This document shows positions 44,520-51,089 of a DNA stretch of 64,000 bases, in pieces. The translations under genes and the position numbers were made by a program. The stretch is from Ruminiclostridium cellulolyticum H10. Its GTDB lineage: Bacteria > Bacillota > Clostridia > Acetivibrionales > DSM-1351. Position 1 is the stretch's first letter. Each line of letters begins with the position of its first letter. A model generated the notes under the pieces. That model had not been told where the DNA came from and made no database searches. It saw nothing but the letters and a program-made list of their open reading frames with translations. The stretch lies in NCBI RefSeq assembly GCF_000022065.1, contig NC_011898.1, forward strand, positions 2,038,501 through 2,102,500, in the 5' to 3' direction.

Positions 44520-45164
44520 ATGATACAAATTGATGATGCGGGCAGTGGCAGTTTTGTTGGCGGCACATGTATAGGTTTTTACAGACCTGAAACAAACGAA
44601 TACTACTTTGATATTATTCCTGTAGAGCTTTATAATACAGATAACTTTAAAAAAAAATTGTATCTGGAGGATGTTGTGGAAATAGCAAAAAAAGCCTTTA
44701 TAGCTCTACGTGTATCAAAGTCTGAATCAATTGAAATATGCAGAGGGTATATGTTTGAAAGGCTGAAAAGCTGGCTGACGGACGAGGGATTTTGTTGGTA
44801 CGTTACACAAATAACAGGACGTATACAGGAAGTTGTGGAAAAGAACTTTGAGCTGTACGCAATCAATCTAGGCCTTCCTAACGATTATATAAAATTTACC
44901 AGATTCCCCTTTCACTTCCATAAACTACTCAGGTGGGTACTGTCTGATTACGAAAATAGAATAAATCTGTGTAAGGTTGGATGGAAGAGCTGGCAAAACC
45001 TCAAAAACGTTACGCCAACATTGAGTTTTACACAAATTCATCAATCAAATTTAATATGTTTGAAATGCGGAAAACATATAAAAAAAGGGTCAGATGTGGC
45101 CGTACTTGAGTTTTATAGCAATAAACAGAATTTTGTATATCTCCACAGAGGGTGTAAAACCTAA
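44520..45164 (+). CDS. Conserved-looking hypothetical protein, possible RNase H-like fold plus zinc motif
   Basis: I do not recognise a named family for this 214-residue protein. The N-terminus, IQIDDAGSGSFVGGTCIGFYR, with adjacent acidic residues followed by a Gly-rich turn and a second strand, resembles the first beta hairpin of RNase H-like folds. The C-terminus has CLKCGKHIKKG ... LHRGC, a CxxC ... HxxC arrangement suited to zinc. GGAGGT lies 13 bases before the ATG, longer than usual. It is monocistronic, rightward, between the RpiR gene and the carboxyltransferase operon. Function is unknown and the fold suggestion is inference. Confidence 0.75.
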   Translation: MIQIDDAGSGSFVGGTCIGFYRPETNEYYFDIIPVELYNTDNFKKKLYLEDVVEIAKKAFIALRVSKSESIEICRGYMFERLKSWLTDEGFCWYVTQITGRIQEVVEKNFELYAINLGLPNDYIKFTRFPFHFHKLLRWVLSDYENRINLCKVGWKSWQNLKNVTPTLSFTQIHQSNLICLKCGKHIKKGSDVAVLEFYSNKQNFVYLHRGCKT

Positions 45165-45166
45165 TA

Positions 45167-45213
45167 CAAGTGCAAAACCCCCCGCAGTATTACAGCGGAG
45201 GGTTTTGTACTTG
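45167..45213. terminator. Bidirectional terminator before the carboxyltransferase operon end
   Basis: A 19-bp GC-containing stem, with minor mismatches, (caagtgcaaaaccccccgc at left) and a 9-nt loop lie directly after the stop of the gene at 44,520, 23 bp from the convergent carboxylase gene end. Confidence 0.8.
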
Positions 45214-45235
45214 TGAAATTTTGGGATTTTATGTT

Positions 45236-46768
45236 TTAAATTTTTGTTCTGAATCTATCAAGCATACCATACAGACTCCATCTGTTCTGATTCTGGTTCA
45301 ACTTAGAGATATTTCCGATTCTGTACTGTGTGCCGTCTCTTTCGCCCATTTCGTTTACTACGGCTGATATTGCCGCTACAACTTCGGGTTTTATTTCGTC
45401 TGATGCGGGTGCAGTAGCCTTATTTCTATCCTCAATACGCTGTTTAAAGAACTTCTCGGCAACCTGAGGAAGCATTGCGTATGAAAGTACATCTTCATCC
45501 TGCTCTATATAATCCTTAACAGCTTCTCTAATCTTTTCAAGCTCAGGTTCAATAAGGTCAGCAGGTCTGCATGTTATAGGCTTTTCATCGCCCAGAATCT
45601 TAGCTTTTATTTCATCACTAATAGGTGCAGGGGTTTTACCGTATTCCCCCTTTACAACGCCTTTTGATTCCTTTGGTACCATCTTGTATCTCTCACCAGT
45701 CAATACATTAAGTACCGCTTGGGTACCAACTATCTGACTTGATGGTGTTACAAGCGGAGGATAGCCGAAATCGGCTCTTACTCTGGGAACTTCCTTGAGA
45801 ACCTCTTCATATTTATCCAAAGCATTTGACTGCTTCAATTGTGAAACAAGATTTGAAAGCATTCCACCAGGTACCTGATAAATAAGAGTGTTAACGTCAA
45901 CACCCATTACCTTAACGTCTAATAGTCCGCTCTCAATATATTTTTCTTTAAGGGGTCTGAAATAGTCTGCAATTTCACTGAGTTTTTCCAAATCCAGTCC
46001 AGTATCGAAATCAGTTCCCTTTAAAGTTGCCACCAAAGGCTCTGTAGGCGGCTGTGACGTTCCCATTGACATAGGTGAAATTGCACAGTCAACAATATCT
46101 ATACCTGCTTCTATAGCCTTCAAATACGTCATAGATGCTACACCGCTAGTATAGTGAGTGTGCAATTGTATCGGTATCTTTACACTTTCTTTCAAAGCCT
46201 TTACCAGTTCATAAGCCTGATACGGCACCAGAAGTCCGGCCATGTCTTTTATACAGATAGAATCTGCTCCCATGCTCTCCAACTGCTTTGCATCTTTTAC
46301 AAAAAGCTCAAGATTGTGAACAGGACTTATAGTATAGCAAATACAGCCCTGAGCATGGCCGCCTTCCTTTTTACATGCCTTAATTGCCGTCTCGATATTC
46401 CTGGCATCATTTAGTGCATCGAATATTCTCATAATGTCCATGCCGTTTGCAACAGCCTTCTGAACAAAGTACTCAACTATATCATCGGCATAGTGTTTGT
46501 ATCCTAAAAGGTTCTGGCCCCTAAGAAGCATTTGCAGAGGTGTTTTCTTTGCAACATCTTTTATTTTTCTAAGTCTCATCCATGGATCTTCATTCAAAAA
46601 TCTCATACATGAGTCAAAAGTAGCTCCGCCCCAAGCTTCCAGTGAATGGTAACCAATATTGTCAAGCTTCTCAACAATTGGAAGCATTTCTTCGGTCTTC
46701 ATTCTGGTTGCTATAAGGGACTGGTGAGCATCTCTTAAAACTGTTTCCGTAATTCTTACGCCTGGCAT
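45236..46768 (-). CDS. Carboxyltransferase subunit (transcarboxylase 5S / oxaloacetate decarboxylase alpha / PycB type)
   Basis: This 510-residue protein has a TIM-barrel carboxyltransferase domain and a PYC_OADA domain. Metal-site and catalytic signatures include RITETVLRDAHQSLIATRM, WGGATFDSCMRFLNEDPW, IKDMAGLLVPYQAYELV and PIQLHTHYTSG. It lacks a fused biotinyl domain, which is encoded by the next gene upstream. It would move CO2 between oxaloacetate/pyruvate and carboxybiotin. Together with the next two genes it forms a complete transcarboxylase-type set. Last gene of the leftward operon. Confidence 0.92.
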   Translation of the reverse strand: MPGVRITETVLRDAHQSLIATRMKTEEMLPIVEKLDNIGYHSLEAWGGATFDSCMRFLNEDPWMRLRKIKDVAKKTPLQMLLRGQNLLGYKHYADDIVEYFVQKAVANGMDIMRIFDALNDARNIETAIKACKKEGGHAQGCICYTISPVHNLELFVKDAKQLESMGADSICIKDMAGLLVPYQAYELVKALKESVKIPIQLHTHYTSGVASMTYLKAIEAGIDIVDCAISPMSMGTSQPPTEPLVATLKGTDFDTGLDLEKLSEIADYFRPLKEKYIESGLLDVKVMGVDVNTLIYQVPGGMLSNLVSQLKQSNALDKYEEVLKEVPRVRADFGYPPLVTPSSQIVGTQAVLNVLTGERYKMVPKESKGVVKGEYGKTPAPISDEIKAKILGDEKPITCRPADLIEPELEKIREAVKDYIEQDEDVLSYAMLPQVAEKFFKQRIEDRNKATAPASDEIKPEVVAAISAVVNEMGERDGTQYRIGNISKLNQNQNRWSLYGMLDRFRTKI

Positions 46769-46799
46769 TTTTCCATCTCCTTTGCGGTAAGTCAGCCTT

Positions 46800-47168
46800 T
46801 TAGGCTATAGACACCATTAGTTCTCCAGCAGTAACAGACTTTCCGGCCTCGACGTTTAACGCCGTAACTTTACCGTCAGCCGGAGCAACTATTTCATTCT
46901 CCATTTTCATAGCTTCAAGTATTAAAAGTACCTGCCCCTTCTTTACTTCATCACCGATAGCAACCTTTACCTTTAAAACAGTTCCCGGCATTGGAGCAGC
47001 AACATCACCTGCTTTACCTGCCTGCGGCTGTGCTGCTTTTGCAGCAGAGGTATGTCCCGGCTTGGTAGCTCTTAGCTTTGGAGCAGCTGAAATGGGCCTT
47101 CCCCCGCCCACTTCTTCAACCTCTACTTCATAAGGAGTTCCGTTTACCTTTATTATATATTTACTCAT
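46800..47168 (-). CDS. Biotin carboxyl carrier protein (1.3S-like)
   Basis: This carrier of about 122 residues has a 30-residue N-terminal strand region, a flexible Ala/Pro-rich linker (residues about 30-55) and a biotinyl domain with PMPGTVLKVKVAIGDEVKKG and the biotinylation motif EAMKMENEI, the Lys being the biotin site. Two in-frame ATGs exist; the first abuts GGAGG directly, so the second (47,168) is preferred. It lies between the two carboxyltransferase subunits and should shuttle carboxybiotin between them. Confidence 0.93.
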   Translation of the reverse strand: MSKYIIKVNGTPYEVEVEEVGGGRPISAAPKLRATKPGHTSAAKAAQPQAGKAGDVAAPMPGTVLKVKVAIGDEVKKGQVLLILEAMKMENEIVAPADGKVTALNVEAGKSVTAGELMVSIA

Positions 47169-47206
47169 TACACTCATCCTCCAGATATTTTGTTTCCTAT
47201 ACTATA

Positions 47207-48757
47207 TTATAGCGGAATGTTTCCATGTTTTTTTGAAGGCCTGTTTTCCCTCTTTGTATCCAGCATTTCCAGAGCAGTTATAATTTTTACTCTGGTTTCA
47301 GAAGGCTCGATAACATCATCAATATACCCTCTTGATGCTGCTACATAAGGATTTGAGAATTTATCTCTATATTCCGCAATCTTTTCCTTTCTGGTTTCTG
47401 CTGGATCTTCCGACGCAGCAATATCCTTTTTAAATATAATATTTGCTGCTCCGTCAGGTCCCATAACTGCAATTTCAGCTGATGGCCATGCCAAAACCAT
47501 ATCGGCACCTATTGTTTTACTGTTCATAGCAATATATGCTCCTCCATATGCCTTTCTAAGAATAACATTTATCTTTGGTACTGTTGCTTCAGAGAAAGCA
47601 TATAGGAGTTTTGCACCGTGACGTATTATGCCGTTATGCTCCTGGGCTACCCCGGGCAGGAATGCAGGTACATCGGTTAATGAAACGACAGGAATATTAA
47701 ATGCATCACAGAAACGAACGAAACGTGCCGCCTTATCAGCCGCGTTCATATCTAGTGACCCTGCCATTATCTTAGGCTGGTTTGCAACAATACCAACACT
47801 TCTGCCATTCATTCTTGCAAATCCGATTATTATATTCTGAGAGAAATAACTCTGAACTTCAAAGAAATCTCCATCATCTACTACTTCTGCTATTACGTCA
47901 AACATGTCATATGGCTTGTTTGACTCTTCTGGAATAATGCTGTTGAGGCTTTCGGCTAATCTGTCGGCAGCATCAGACACTCCGTAGTACATAGTATCTG
48001 ATACATTATTATCGGGAATAAAACTTAAAAGCCTCTTTATATCTTCTATACACTCTTCTTCGCTTGAAGATTTGAAATGTGCTACACCGCTTGTAGCAGT
48101 ATGAACATCTGCACCTCCCAGATTTTCAACTGATACATCTTCACCCGTAACAGACTTTATTACCTGTGGGCCTGTAATAAACATCTGACTTGTTTTTTCC
48201 ACCATGAATATAAAATCAGTTATGGCCGGGGAATATACCGCACCACCTGCACATGGCCCCATTATTACTGATATCTGCGGAATAACGCCTGATGCAAGAG
48301 TATTCCTGTAAAAAATATCTCCGTAACCTGAAAGAGCATCCAGACCTTCCTCAATACGAGCTCCGCCGGAATCATTAATGGCTATGAACGGTGCTCCCAT
48401 TTTCAGAGCCATATCCATAACCTTTGTAATTTTCTTTGCGTGCATCTCTCCCAATGAACCGCCTATAACAGTAAAGTCCTGTGATGAAACAAAGACCTTT
48501 CTGCCATTAACTGTTCCGTAACCGGTAACAACCCCGTCACCTGGAAGTTTCTTCTTCTGCATACCAAAGTCAAAGCATCTGGATTCTATGAATGCATCTA
48601 CCTCAACAAAACTGTTTTCATCAAACAACAAATGGATTCTTTCTCTGGCAGAAAGCTTTCCATCTGCGTGTCTTTTTGCTATTTTCTCTTCTCCGCCGCC
48701 TTTAGCTATAGTTTTTTTCATGTTTTTTAAATTTTGTATCTTTTCAATTTGTGACAT
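47207..48757 (-). CDS. Acyl-CoA carboxyltransferase subunit (12S / MmdA / PccB type)
   Basis: This 516-residue crotonase-fold carboxyltransferase has GGGEEKIAKRHADGKLSARERI at the start, the N-domain acyl-CoA-binding segment FIAINDSGGARIEEGLDALSGYG (oxyanion Gly-Ala) and the C-domain FLPGVAQEHNGIIRHGAKLLYAFSEA with KAYGGAYIAMNSK. This class uses propionyl-CoA/methylmalonyl-CoA. It is the first gene of the operon. No biotin carboxylase and no membrane beta subunit lie nearby. Confidence 0.94.
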   Translation of the reverse strand: MSQIEKIQNLKNMKKTIAKGGGEEKIAKRHADGKLSARERIHLLFDENSFVEVDAFIESRCFDFGMQKKKLPGDGVVTGYGTVNGRKVFVSSQDFTVIGGSLGEMHAKKITKVMDMALKMGAPFIAINDSGGARIEEGLDALSGYGDIFYRNTLASGVIPQISVIMGPCAGGAVYSPAITDFIFMVEKTSQMFITGPQVIKSVTGEDVSVENLGGADVHTATSGVAHFKSSSEEECIEDIKRLLSFIPDNNVSDTMYYGVSDAADRLAESLNSIIPEESNKPYDMFDVIAEVVDDGDFFEVQSYFSQNIIIGFARMNGRSVGIVANQPKIMAGSLDMNAADKAARFVRFCDAFNIPVVSLTDVPAFLPGVAQEHNGIIRHGAKLLYAFSEATVPKINVILRKAYGGAYIAMNSKTIGADMVLAWPSAEIAVMGPDGAANIIFKKDIAASEDPAETRKEKIAEYRDKFSNPYVAASRGYIDDVIEPSETRVKIITALEMLDTKRENRPSKKHGNIPL

Positions 48758-48860: not shown

Positions 48861-48880
48861 TTATTAGTACCTAGTAATAA
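48861..48880. promoter_or_regulatory. FapR-like palindromic operator candidate
   Basis: TTATTAGTACCTAGTAATAA is a near-perfect palindrome whose core TTAGTACCTAGTA resembles the FapR operator of Firmicutes as I remember it. FapR represses fatty-acid and phospholipid genes and responds to malonyl-CoA. It lies about 100 bp upstream of an acyl-CoA carboxyltransferase gene. The consensus is from memory and no fapR is in the window, so this is a suggestion. Confidence 0.35.
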
Positions 48881-48936
48881 TTATAGTATATCGTTAAAAG
48901 AGTGTCAATACAGCTAATATAGTCCTGTAAATTTAT

Positions 48937-49087: not shown

Positions 49088-49846
49088 TTGACCATTCTAA
49101 ATCTATTTGGTAACTCCCGGAAAAAGCCACAGCCTATTGAAGAAGCTGTGGTTAGAATCAAGAACGGGGATACTCATTTAAAAGAAGGTTTAATTAATGA
49201 TTATAAGCCATTTATCTTAAAAGTAATATCCTCAGTCACAGGTAAATTCGTTGACACCAAAAACAGCGATGAGCTAAGTATTGGTCTTATGGCTTTCAAT
49301 GAGGCTATTGAATCTTTTAATACTGAAAAAAACGCGGGATTTTTAAGCTTTGCAGAGATGGTTATAAAACGAAGAATTGTCGACCATATGAGGAAGGATT
49401 ATAAAAACAGGAAAGTCTATCCATTTACATATTTCCAAGATAGTGACCATAAAGATAAAAATACTATCGAAAATAAATATATGGTGGTTGATGCTAATAC
49501 TTATTTTGATAATGTAGAACTCAAAGAAGAAATCGATTTATTTAAGACAAGGCTTAAAGGTTTTGGTATAAGCCTGTCTGATTTGGTTGGAAATGTCCCT
49601 AAACACACAGATTCTAAAAAACTGGCCATAAGCATTGCACGGGTTCTATCTGAAAATAAAACGTTATCGGAATTGCTTACAAAAAAGAAAACCATTCCAA
49701 TGTCTGGACTGCTAAAAATAGTAAAAGTAAACCGTAAGACCATCGAAAGAAACAGAAAGTTTATCATAGCAGTATTTCTAATAATAAACAGTAAGCTAGA
49801 AGTATTGCAGGAATATGTATGCAATATAGAGAAAGGAGGAAAATAA
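49088..49846 (+). CDS. sigI: RNA polymerase sigma factor SigI
   Basis: This 252-residue SigI-type sigma factor has region 2 (DYKPFILKVISSVTGKFVD, SDELSIGLMAFNEAIESFN, GFLSFAEMVIKRRIVDHMRKD) and a diverged C-terminal region with MSGLLKIVKVNRKTIERNRKFIIAVFLI, the helix-turn-helix used for -35 recognition. In cellulolytic clostridia SigI factors turn on cellulosome and polysaccharide-degradation genes, and in Bacillus they respond to heat. The start is TTG after AAGGAG. It is coupled to rsgI one base later. Confidence 0.95.
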   Translation: MTILNLFGNSRKKPQPIEEAVVRIKNGDTHLKEGLINDYKPFILKVISSVTGKFVDTKNSDELSIGLMAFNEAIESFNTEKNAGFLSFAEMVIKRRIVDHMRKDYKNRKVYPFTYFQDSDHKDKNTIENKYMVVDANTYFDNVELKEEIDLFKTRLKGFGISLSDLVGNVPKHTDSKKLAISIARVLSENKTLSELLTKKKTIPMSGLLKIVKVNRKTIERNRKFIIAVFLIINSKLEVLQEYVCNIEKGGK

Positions 49847-49847
49847 C

Positions 49848-51089
49848 ATGGGAAATAATACCGGAACAATCCTTGAAATCAAAGGCAATAAAGCTATTGT
49901 AATGACAAATACATGTGATTTTATAGCCATAACCAGAATGCCTGAAATGTTTGTAGGACAGCAGGTTGATTTAAATAACTCGGCAATCAAAAGCAAATCT
50001 AATCCGCTGAAGTATTTTGCTATTGCGGGAATGTTTGTTTTAATCCTTTGTTCTGTTTTAATTTACCAGTTGGTAAAACCATCTGCAGTTTTTGCATATG
50101 TAGACGTTGATATTAACCCAAGCCTTGAATTATTAATAGATAAAAAAGCCAATGTCATTGAGGTTAAAACACTTAATAGTGATGCGGACGCTCTTGTTAA
50201 AGATATAAGGCTTGTAAACAAGTCCTTGACCAATGCTGTAAAGATTATAATAAAAGAATCACAAAATAAAGGATTTATACGTCCCGATACGAAAAATGCA
50301 GTTTTGATTTCAGCTTCAATTAATCCGGGTAAATCGATCAGTTCTGCTGTATCCAGTGAAAAAATACTGGATGTTATTGTTTCGGATCTTCAAAAAACAG
50401 ATTTCAGCATTGGGGCTGTATCTATAAAGGCAGAAGTAGTAAAAGTTGACCCGATCGAAAGGTCCGAGGCTGTTAAAAATAATATTTCAATGGGGCGTTA
50501 TAAGCTGTTTGAAGAAATAACTGAATCAGATGAAAATATAGATATAGAAAAAGCTAAAACCGAAGGTCTTTCCAAAATAATTGAAGAATATGAAACCAAA
50601 GAACAGGAAAAAACAATTGCTAGTGTAGATAAAGACAATAGTTATAAACCTGTTCAGGATAATAAAGAAATCCTTGACAAACCCAAAAATAGCACTACCA
50701 AAGATAATCCTAAAGTTGCGGATAATAAGAAGCCTGAAAATAACAACTCACAAAAATATAGTAATGGGAATTCCAACAGCTCAAAAAGTTCTGCTGTGAA
50801 ACCGAATAAAGCAGAAGACCAATTTAAGGCTTCACGTTCCAACAGTGAAAATAATTCTTCAAATAATCGTGATCAAAGCAAAAATACTAACAAAAAAAGC
50901 TCTGATGAAAAGAAAACTCTTGATCAGGGCTCAAAACCTATTACTACGGACGATGGTACTAAATCTCTCAATAATAAAAACAATAATAAAAATAATGATG
51001 AAAAACCAAAAAACCATCCCGCTAAAGAAAATAAACAAGAAAATGGTAATAACAATCAACAAAAATCAAAAGAGAAGAACAAAAAGTAG
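49848..51089 (+). CDS. rsgI: Anti-sigma-I factor RsgI
   Basis: This 413-residue single-pass membrane protein has a cytosolic RsgI_N domain that binds SigI (NTGTILEIKGNKAIVMTNTC, residues 1-50), a membrane helix (YFAIAGMFVLILCSVLIYQLV, about 56-76) and a conserved outer domain AYVDVDINPSLELLID. This contains the Asn90-Pro91 bond at which RsgI proteins self-cleave during signalling. From about residue 250 on, the sequence is a low-complexity Asn/Lys/Ser/Glu-rich tail with no recognisable carbohydrate-binding module, unlike many C. thermocellum RsgI proteins. It is co-transcribed with sigI. Confidence 0.93.
   Translation: MGNNTGTILEIKGNKAIVMTNTCDFIAITRMPEMFVGQQVDLNNSAIKSKSNPLKYFAIAGMFVLILCSVLIYQLVKPSAVFAYVDVDINPSLELLIDKKANVIEVKTLNSDADALVKDIRLVNKSLTNAVKIIIKESQNKGFIRPDTKNAVLISASINPGKSISSAVSSEKILDVIVSDLQKTDFSIGAVSIKAEVVKVDPIERSEAVKNNISMGRYKLFEEITESDENIDIEKAKTEGLSKIIEEYETKEQEKTIASVDKDNSYKPVQDNKEILDKPKNSTTKDNPKVADNKKPENNNSQKYSNGNSNSSKSSAVKPNKAEDQFKASRSNSENNSSNNRDQSKNTNKKSSDEKKTLDQGSKPITTDDGTKSLNNKNNNKNNDEKPKNHPAKENKQENGNNNQQKSKEKNKK

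Follow-up and report, generated by a model that had tools for sequence, protein, structure and literature searches.

How is malonyl-coenzyme A (malonyl-CoA) for fatty acid synthesis obtained where no biotin carboxylase is encoded? For many Clostridia this is a real question, since profile searches gave no match to this enzyme in 39 of the 47 genomes surveyed from the order Acetivibrionales and in 97 of the 146 that made up a class sample. Here, we approach it through a three-gene operon of Ruminiclostridium cellulolyticum H10, located in a stretch of 64,000 nucleotides (the window; positions 2038501-2102500 of the complete 4,068,724-bp genome, contig NC_011898.1). The operon encodes a 12S-type acyl-CoA carboxyltransferase, a biotin carrier and a 5S-type carboxyltransferase, which probably form a soluble oxaloacetate:acetyl-CoA transcarboxylase, related to a Na+ pump, from which fatty acid synthesis would draw its malonyl-CoA. 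The operon is thereby a testable answer to the question, tying lipid synthesis to the phosphoenolpyruvate (PEP)-oxaloacetate-pyruvate node, and one adenosine triphosphate (ATP) would be saved per malonyl-CoA if the answer is true.

In the proposed reaction, 5S would carboxylate the carrier biotin with oxaloacetate as the donor, leaving pyruvate, and 12S would then hand the carboxyl group on to acetyl-CoA to yield malonyl-CoA. The oxaloacetate would be made from PEP by PEP carboxykinase, and because this enzyme conserves a nucleoside triphosphate, the carboxylation step would cost no ATP.

The three subunits and their genome

An earlier note, made from the sequence alone, had read three adjacent leftward genes as a 12S-type subunit, a free-standing carrier and a 5S-type subunit. 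Three minus-strand open reading frames (ORFs) indeed span exactly this part of the window (48757-45236), as a single leftward operon with spacings of 29 and 31 bp:

47207..48757, minus strand: 12S-type acyl-CoA carboxyltransferase (P0001), 516 aa; Carboxyl_trans match of 671.6 bits
46800..47177, minus strand: biotin carboxyl carrier protein (P0002), 125 aa; Biotin_lipoyl match, AMKM motif at residue 89
45236..46768, minus strand: 5S-type pyruvate/oxaloacetate carboxyltransferase (P0003), 510 aa, with a C-terminal extension; HMGL-like and PYC_OADA matches

All three proteins match solved structures of the Propionibacterium transcarboxylase (12S/1.3S/5S) in the PDB, namely 1on3 (12S, 654.7 bits), 1rqb (5S, 485.1) and 1dcz (1.3S, 57.0), and together with the family matches this bears out the subunit set that the note had recognised. 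The 5S core motifs and AMKM are kept; LRDAH, IKDMAG and LHTH are present in P0003 and presumably make up the metal/carbamyl-lysine site. The motifs expected of both half-reactions are found among the proteins. In contrast to the Propionibacterium enzyme, P0003 scores higher with the solved oxaloacetate decarboxylase alpha subunit (567 bits) and pyruvate carboxylase subunit beta (541) than with transcarboxylase 5S (485), and its C-terminal end lies outside the part aligned with 1rqb (query 4-451). Among curated NCBIfam models, it passes those for 'oxaloacetate decarboxylase subunit alpha' (869.7, cut-off 718) and for 'pyruvate carboxylase subunit B' (780.2, cut-off 402) and falls short of the 5S equivalog NF008984 (604.3, cut-off 827).

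The acyl-CoA substrate was approached through Ile409 of 12S, in the column that we take to be that of PccB Asp422, the acyl-CoA specificity position. The residue aligns with Ile in the 1vrg chain and Leu in the transcarboxylase 12S chain, while two solved PccB chains in the alignment, presumably engineered variants, carry Ile and Val; the D422I change in PccB reportedly admits acetyl-CoA. Among 49 12S sequences, all 45 that fit the motif have Ile at this position, L061 also has Ile by eye, and the remaining three are fragments. Ile409 thus appears to permit the use of acetyl-CoA by 12S, falling short of proof because of the Ile and Leu in the 1vrg and transcarboxylase chains.

Genome-wide, PF01039 matches the 12S protein, one AccD and one AccA, and PF00364 matches two carriers, that of the window and that of an acc operon (accC-accB-accC-accD-accA, 1.109-1.114 Mb; L008:9162-14216). 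Pyruvate kinase is matched once. Both PF02785 matches, i.e. two biotin carboxylases (1.110-1.113 Mb), belong to this acc operon, 0.97 Mb from the 12S operon. The beta subunit (OAD_beta, PF03977) is without a match in the complete 4.07-Mb genome, and methylmalonyl-CoA mutase (PF01642) has 0 matches; the controls of these two whole-genome searches were positive in 2/14 and 8/14 cases, respectively. A membrane-anchored gamma or delta subunit is missing from the operon, no separate genome-wide search having been aimed at delta. The lack of a beta subunit that the note had reported beside the operon therefore holds for the whole genome, and that of a biotin carboxylase holds beside the operon and not for the genome; the genome check that it proposed turned up accC, twice and at a distance, and no beta.

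Compared with acetyl-CoA carboxylase (AccABCD), which makes the same proposed product, the operon is without a biotin carboxylase and has a fused 12S-type carboxyltransferase in place of AccD and AccA, AccABCD being encoded in its own operon. In that acc operon, one carrier is flanked by two biotin carboxylases that differ from each other, of 513 and 458 aa; the 458-aa protein is above the AccC cut-off (TIGR00514), and the 513-aa one is below every curated cut-off shown. The five-gene arrangement also occurs in G018, and G017 keeps only a relative of the 513-aa protein, adjoining an IS256 transposase.

A FapR-type site in the promoter

Beyond what the earlier note had covered, the operon carries a 54-residue domain at the 5S C-terminus, taken up below, and a FapR-type site in its promoter:

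48880..48908, minus strand: sigma-A type promoter TTGACA-17-TATAAT, 12/12 consensus positions, the sole 12/12 site in the region
48864..48880, no strand assigned: FapR-type palindrome TTAGTACCTAGTAATAA, abutting the end of the -10 hexamer and kept upstream of orthologues

The promoter scan returned 18 promoter-like sites vs 15.2 expected. The published FapR palindrome is TTAGTACCAGATACTAA (PubMed Central (PMC) article PMC5028935). A first genome scan used a pattern written after the window site had been seen and was hence partly circular; it gave 14 matches, one perfect (the window site, partly by construction), one with a single mismatch at 785536, just upstream of fapR, and 12 with two mismatches. 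A second scan avoided this circularity by using an ideal palindrome, derived from the left half as published, on 98,002 bases (the window, L008 and L178), which are a non-random sample since L178 was included because the fab operon lies there. Only two sites with at most three mismatches were found, at the promoters of 12S and of fapR-plsX-fabH-fabD-fabG-acpP-fabF-rnc, both with two mismatches. Base shuffles gave on average 0.02 sites at two mismatches and 0.38 at three, and the reversed pattern none at two and two at three. The regulator preceding the fab operon passes the NCBIfam FapR cut-off (257.6 vs 183), and, judged by sequence, the two elements of a FapR regulon, i.e. fapR in the genome and a palindrome (two mismatches) at the 12S promoter, are thus both in place. 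A FapR-type site is also found in 32 of the 44 readable orthologous upstream regions (0/440 shuffles), and the same pattern scans found none at the acc operon of the window genome. FapR would accordingly be predicted to bind here, repressing the operon along with the fab genes and releasing it when malonyl-CoA rises.

Both parts of this proposal are already in print for relatives. The annotated gene set and proposed role of Clo1313_1523-1526 in C. thermocellum (PMC5414155) and of B5X54_RS07175-07190 in Caldicellulosiruptor bescii (PMC7071700) are as in the window. The former paper offers the transcarboxylase idea, recruiting the C. thermocellum homologue for malonyl-CoA as a model assumption since standard acetyl-CoA carboxylase is missing there. 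The latter provides FapR control by experiment: in C. bescii, the fab genes went up on deletion of fapR, as did a unit of four genes (carboxyl transferase, hypothetical protein, carrier, oxaloacetate decarboxylase) that is preceded by a predicted FapR site and described by the authors as a putative malonyl-CoA biosynthesis unit (PMC7071700). In B. subtilis, in contrast, the acc genes are outside FapR control (PMC5052256). Our search of the open PMC literature found nothing beyond PMC7071700 on FapR with the transcarboxylase, no account of the order-wide pattern, the fused domain or the window FapR site, and no experimental test of a malonyl-CoA transcarboxylase in cellulolytic clostridia.

The same three subunits also make up the classical methylmalonyl-CoA:pyruvate transcarboxylase, and the operon could in principle serve a propionate pathway like that of propionibacteria. 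With no mutase match in the genome and with FapR-type regulation, neither of which fits that enzyme, we regard this role as very improbable.

Distribution in the order and class

The order survey comprised 47 genomes with a completeness of at least 90. The 12S gene is present in 46 of them and FabD in 45, AccD/AccA occur in two, both of the window's genus, and biotin carboxylase is matched in eight, three of these matches sitting in a frame of ~1200 aa, which we take to be the size of urea carboxylase. With 39 genomes lacking biotin carboxylase and 45 lacking AccA/AccD while FabD and 12S are nearly universal, some other source of malonyl-CoA would be needed in the order. The beta subunit is found in 34/47 genomes but in only 2/11 of the window's genus, and eight genomes have neither biotin carboxylase nor beta. 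All eight retain 12S and seven FabD, suggesting that the system can do without both pump and ATP. Four of the eight belong to the window's genus, with 12S proteins 88-97% identical to that of the window, the closest being G019 and G020 (12S 97.1%, 5S 97.1-97.3%). These near-identical orthologues without biotin carboxylase or beta, the missing mutase and the operator common to the fab operon together favour malonyl-CoA over methylmalonyl-CoA; of the two partners that the earlier note had allowed, the first is thus strengthened and the second is not.

In the eight genomes carboxybiotin can presumably be charged only at 5S or 12S, and their lack of biotin carboxylase and beta leaves transcarboxylation or mere decarboxylation as options. 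The latter corresponds to labels in print: Ccel_1736-1738 are entered as oaadc in Table 3 of PMC3561251, and the same genes are called oxaloacetate decarboxylase in PMC3492117, PMC3561251 and PMC4877739. A soluble decarboxylase would then only help to convert PEP to pyruvate. The NCBIfam score of P0003 as a decarboxylase alpha subunit is in keeping with such a function, and an oxaloacetate decarboxylase assay on C. bescii extracts is described in the methods of PMC8269263. However, this function would leave the conserved 12S and the FapR-type site shared with fab unexplained, and oxaloacetate decarboxylase activity was undetected in wild-type C. thermocellum (PMC5414155); we consider it distinctly unlikely.

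Several points weigh against the proposed transcarboxylase. P0001 stays under the curated mmdA cut-off of NCBIfam (883 vs 999). The pattern of the first FapR scan was post hoc, and the two-mismatch matches that make up 12 of its 14 hits are background (26 in the reversed control). Of the eight genomes that lack both biotin carboxylase and beta, several are draft assemblies; G020 consists of a single contig. Unlike 45/47 genomes of the order, the window genome has AccA/AccD and a complete acc operon, and because of this operon malonyl-CoA need not depend on the transcarboxylase here and a biotin carboxylase could act in trans. Nor would the set of 12S, carrier and 5S alone prove a soluble transcarboxylase, since in other Clostridia (the best 80 loci among the matches listed, picked by two peptide patterns) 52/80 loci hold a beta gene, including 46 of the 61 that show all three genes, and 12S, a delta-like protein, carrier, beta and 5S often stand in one run. 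The class sample further shows that a missing biotin carboxylase is common in Clostridia and not special to this order, which tempers the order-wide argument.

The in-trans possibility can be put more precisely: AccC1 or AccC2 of the distant acc operon would load the carrier, and acetyl-CoA or pyruvate would be carboxylated at the expense of ATP. The two biotin carboxylases of the window genome would allow this, and in G043 an accC lies directly upstream of 12S-carrier-5S. On the other side, the 39 genomes without a biotin carboxylase match include G019 and G020, where 12S and 5S are 97% identical to those of the window, and the acc operon comes with a carrier and AccDA of its own and shows no FapR-type site, making this explanation an unlikely one. 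The G043 locus itself (L091:4031-9468) has a fused C-terminal domain on 5S and no FapR-type site within 4 kb upstream, and is possibly an ATP-dependent version of the same complex.

The epsilon-like domain and the Na+ pump

The C-terminal extension of 5S is where the oxaloacetate:acetyl-CoA transcarboxylase proposed here would meet the Na+-translocating decarboxylases:

45239..45400, minus strand: epsilon-like domain, 5S residues 457-510 (54 residues), homologous to a small ORF that stands free in relatives and to the delta subunit of the Na+ pump in its cytosolic tail

The layout of the 12S neighbourhood was readable in 44 genomes of the order, G013 and G032 being left out of the 46 12S loci as their contigs end there. 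A free ORF of 52-106 aa lies between 12S and the carrier in 18 of these genomes (among them G012), a homologous piece is fused to the 5S C-terminus in another 18, including 11/11 of the window's genus, and eight have neither form. The C. bescii unit carries its small hypothetical protein between 12S and carrier, an epsilon counterpart by position only, in contrast to the fused domain of the window's genus. Our first reading, that this genus had lost the piece, was wrong because the piece is fused to 5S.

A hidden Markov model (HMM) built from the free ORFs alone picks out residues 457-510 of the window 5S (domain E 3.6e-8, for a small collection of epsilon, 5S, gamma and delta proteins), along with 17 further long 5S proteins. 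Searched against all ORFs, it also recovers delta subunits by their C-terminal half (E 8e-19 to 1e-14, unrelated ORFs having E >=0.07), and the profiles of the free and fused forms, when compared, match with 99.6% probability. Current domain libraries leave the domain unnamed: the free form has no NCBIfam match, the window stretch matches OAD gamma only weakly and in part (E 0.0028, 17.9 vs a cut-off of 84), and delta matches OadG and MmdD, with MmdE reached only at E 0.15. In Veillonella, MmdE is a small subunit resembling the end of MmdD. By analogy with the gamma tail of the oxaloacetate decarboxylase pump, the epsilon-like end probably scaffolds the complex; in the predicted AlphaFold structure of 5S (mean predicted local distance difference test score 81.9) the epsilon-like blocks score 36-65, so that their placement is tentative.

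A separate delta-beta pair is present in 8/8 of the genomes with neither form, in 6/18 with the free and in 0/18 with the fused form (G010 has a broken beta fragment, which was assigned to no class). A rule that free epsilon goes with the pair was rejected, only those six of 18 free-form genomes holding one. A FapR-type site within 350 bp of 12S shows the opposite distribution, with 0/8 in the genomes with neither form, 15/16 of the readable free and 17/18 of the fused. Fisher tests gave 3.8e-7 for the site and 1.7e-5 for the pair, treating as independent genomes that are related (G004-G007 are one genus). On these counts, clusters that look cytosolic appear to be mostly FapR-linked, and those that must borrow a membrane-anchored delta mostly not. 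The eight genomes with neither form do keep FapR before the fab genes, with a site of at most two mismatches in six.

The two exceptions within 350 bp, both without a site, are L080 (G038, free epsilon) and L091 (G043, accC upstream). Extending the view to 4 kb makes the pattern less clean: L068 (G040, one of the eight with neither form) has a weak site within a coding ORF, 1.2 kb upstream, and there is another 1.7 kb upstream at L080, in the gap before two same-strand genes leading to 12S, where it could serve a longer operon; the background of this view is 3 or 4 such sites, by two scores, in 220 shuffled upstream regions.

The likeness to the Na+-translocating decarboxylases extends over the operon, 12S resembling methylmalonyl-CoA decarboxylase alpha, 5S oxaloacetate decarboxylase alpha and the epsilon-like domain the delta tail. 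That the products could be the cytosolic part of such a pump, with a membrane part that went unrecognised, draws on the homologous sets with beta in other Clostridia and on the 14 genomes of the order in which a delta-beta pair stands apart. We hold this to be extremely improbable, as the window genome has no beta match and the operon no membrane-anchored part, 9/11 genomes of the genus have no PF03977 match, and the delta-beta pair accompanies none of the 18 fused-domain clusters. In other Clostridia, delta holds the position of the free epsilon ORF of this order, which suggests that the soluble transcarboxylase derives from a pump by loss of the membrane parts, the reverse course being the alternative. 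The title of a 1984 paper by Dimroth and Hilpert, listed in PMC7274780, names reversal of the Na+ pump to carboxylate acetyl-CoA. A domain that shuttles between free, fused and delta-borne states would be a handle on the interconversion of Na+ pump and soluble transcarboxylase.

For the order as a whole, we lean slightly towards a scheme in which membrane lipids are made largely without acetyl-CoA carboxylase, by a FapR-controlled oxaloacetate transcarboxylase that descends from a Na+-pump decarboxylase or is ancestral to one. The membrane parts would have been shed and the anchor tail alone kept, free in some lineages and fused to 5S in the window's genus. The acc operon of the window genome would be a later, FapR-independent extra.

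Some further loci were recorded during the survey. In 20 genomes of the order, G012 among them, there is a solitary Na+-pump beta of a third kind, ~368-430 aa (L126, L128, L130-L139 and L141-L148), no alpha, carrier or delta being found within the few kb fetched around it. At L083 (G039, contig C28), two equal-scoring 12S-carrier-5S clusters lie in mirror orientation ~6 kb apart, perhaps an assembly artefact. A record of Alkalitalea saponilacus, a member of the Bacteroidota, contains a carrier and a fused-domain 5S that is 75% identical to that of the window (L200:5598-7542), pointing to transfer or contamination.

In the window, the operon is followed by a possible terminator, which was not among the output of the terminator scan:

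45166..45214, minus strand: strong hairpin 3' of 5S, -30.8 kcal/mol for 66 nt, z -6.4, 0/200 shuffles as stable

Convergent with 5S is a gene for a 214-aa protein (44520-45164, plus strand) without an NCBIfam or Pfam match, and several relatives have ORFs at the same place that are similar, judged by length alone. Divergent from the 12S operon (49088-51089, plus strand), a SigI sigma factor is followed by an RsgI-like anti-sigma factor, which has a low-complexity C-terminus and whose Pfam matches are RsgI domains only.

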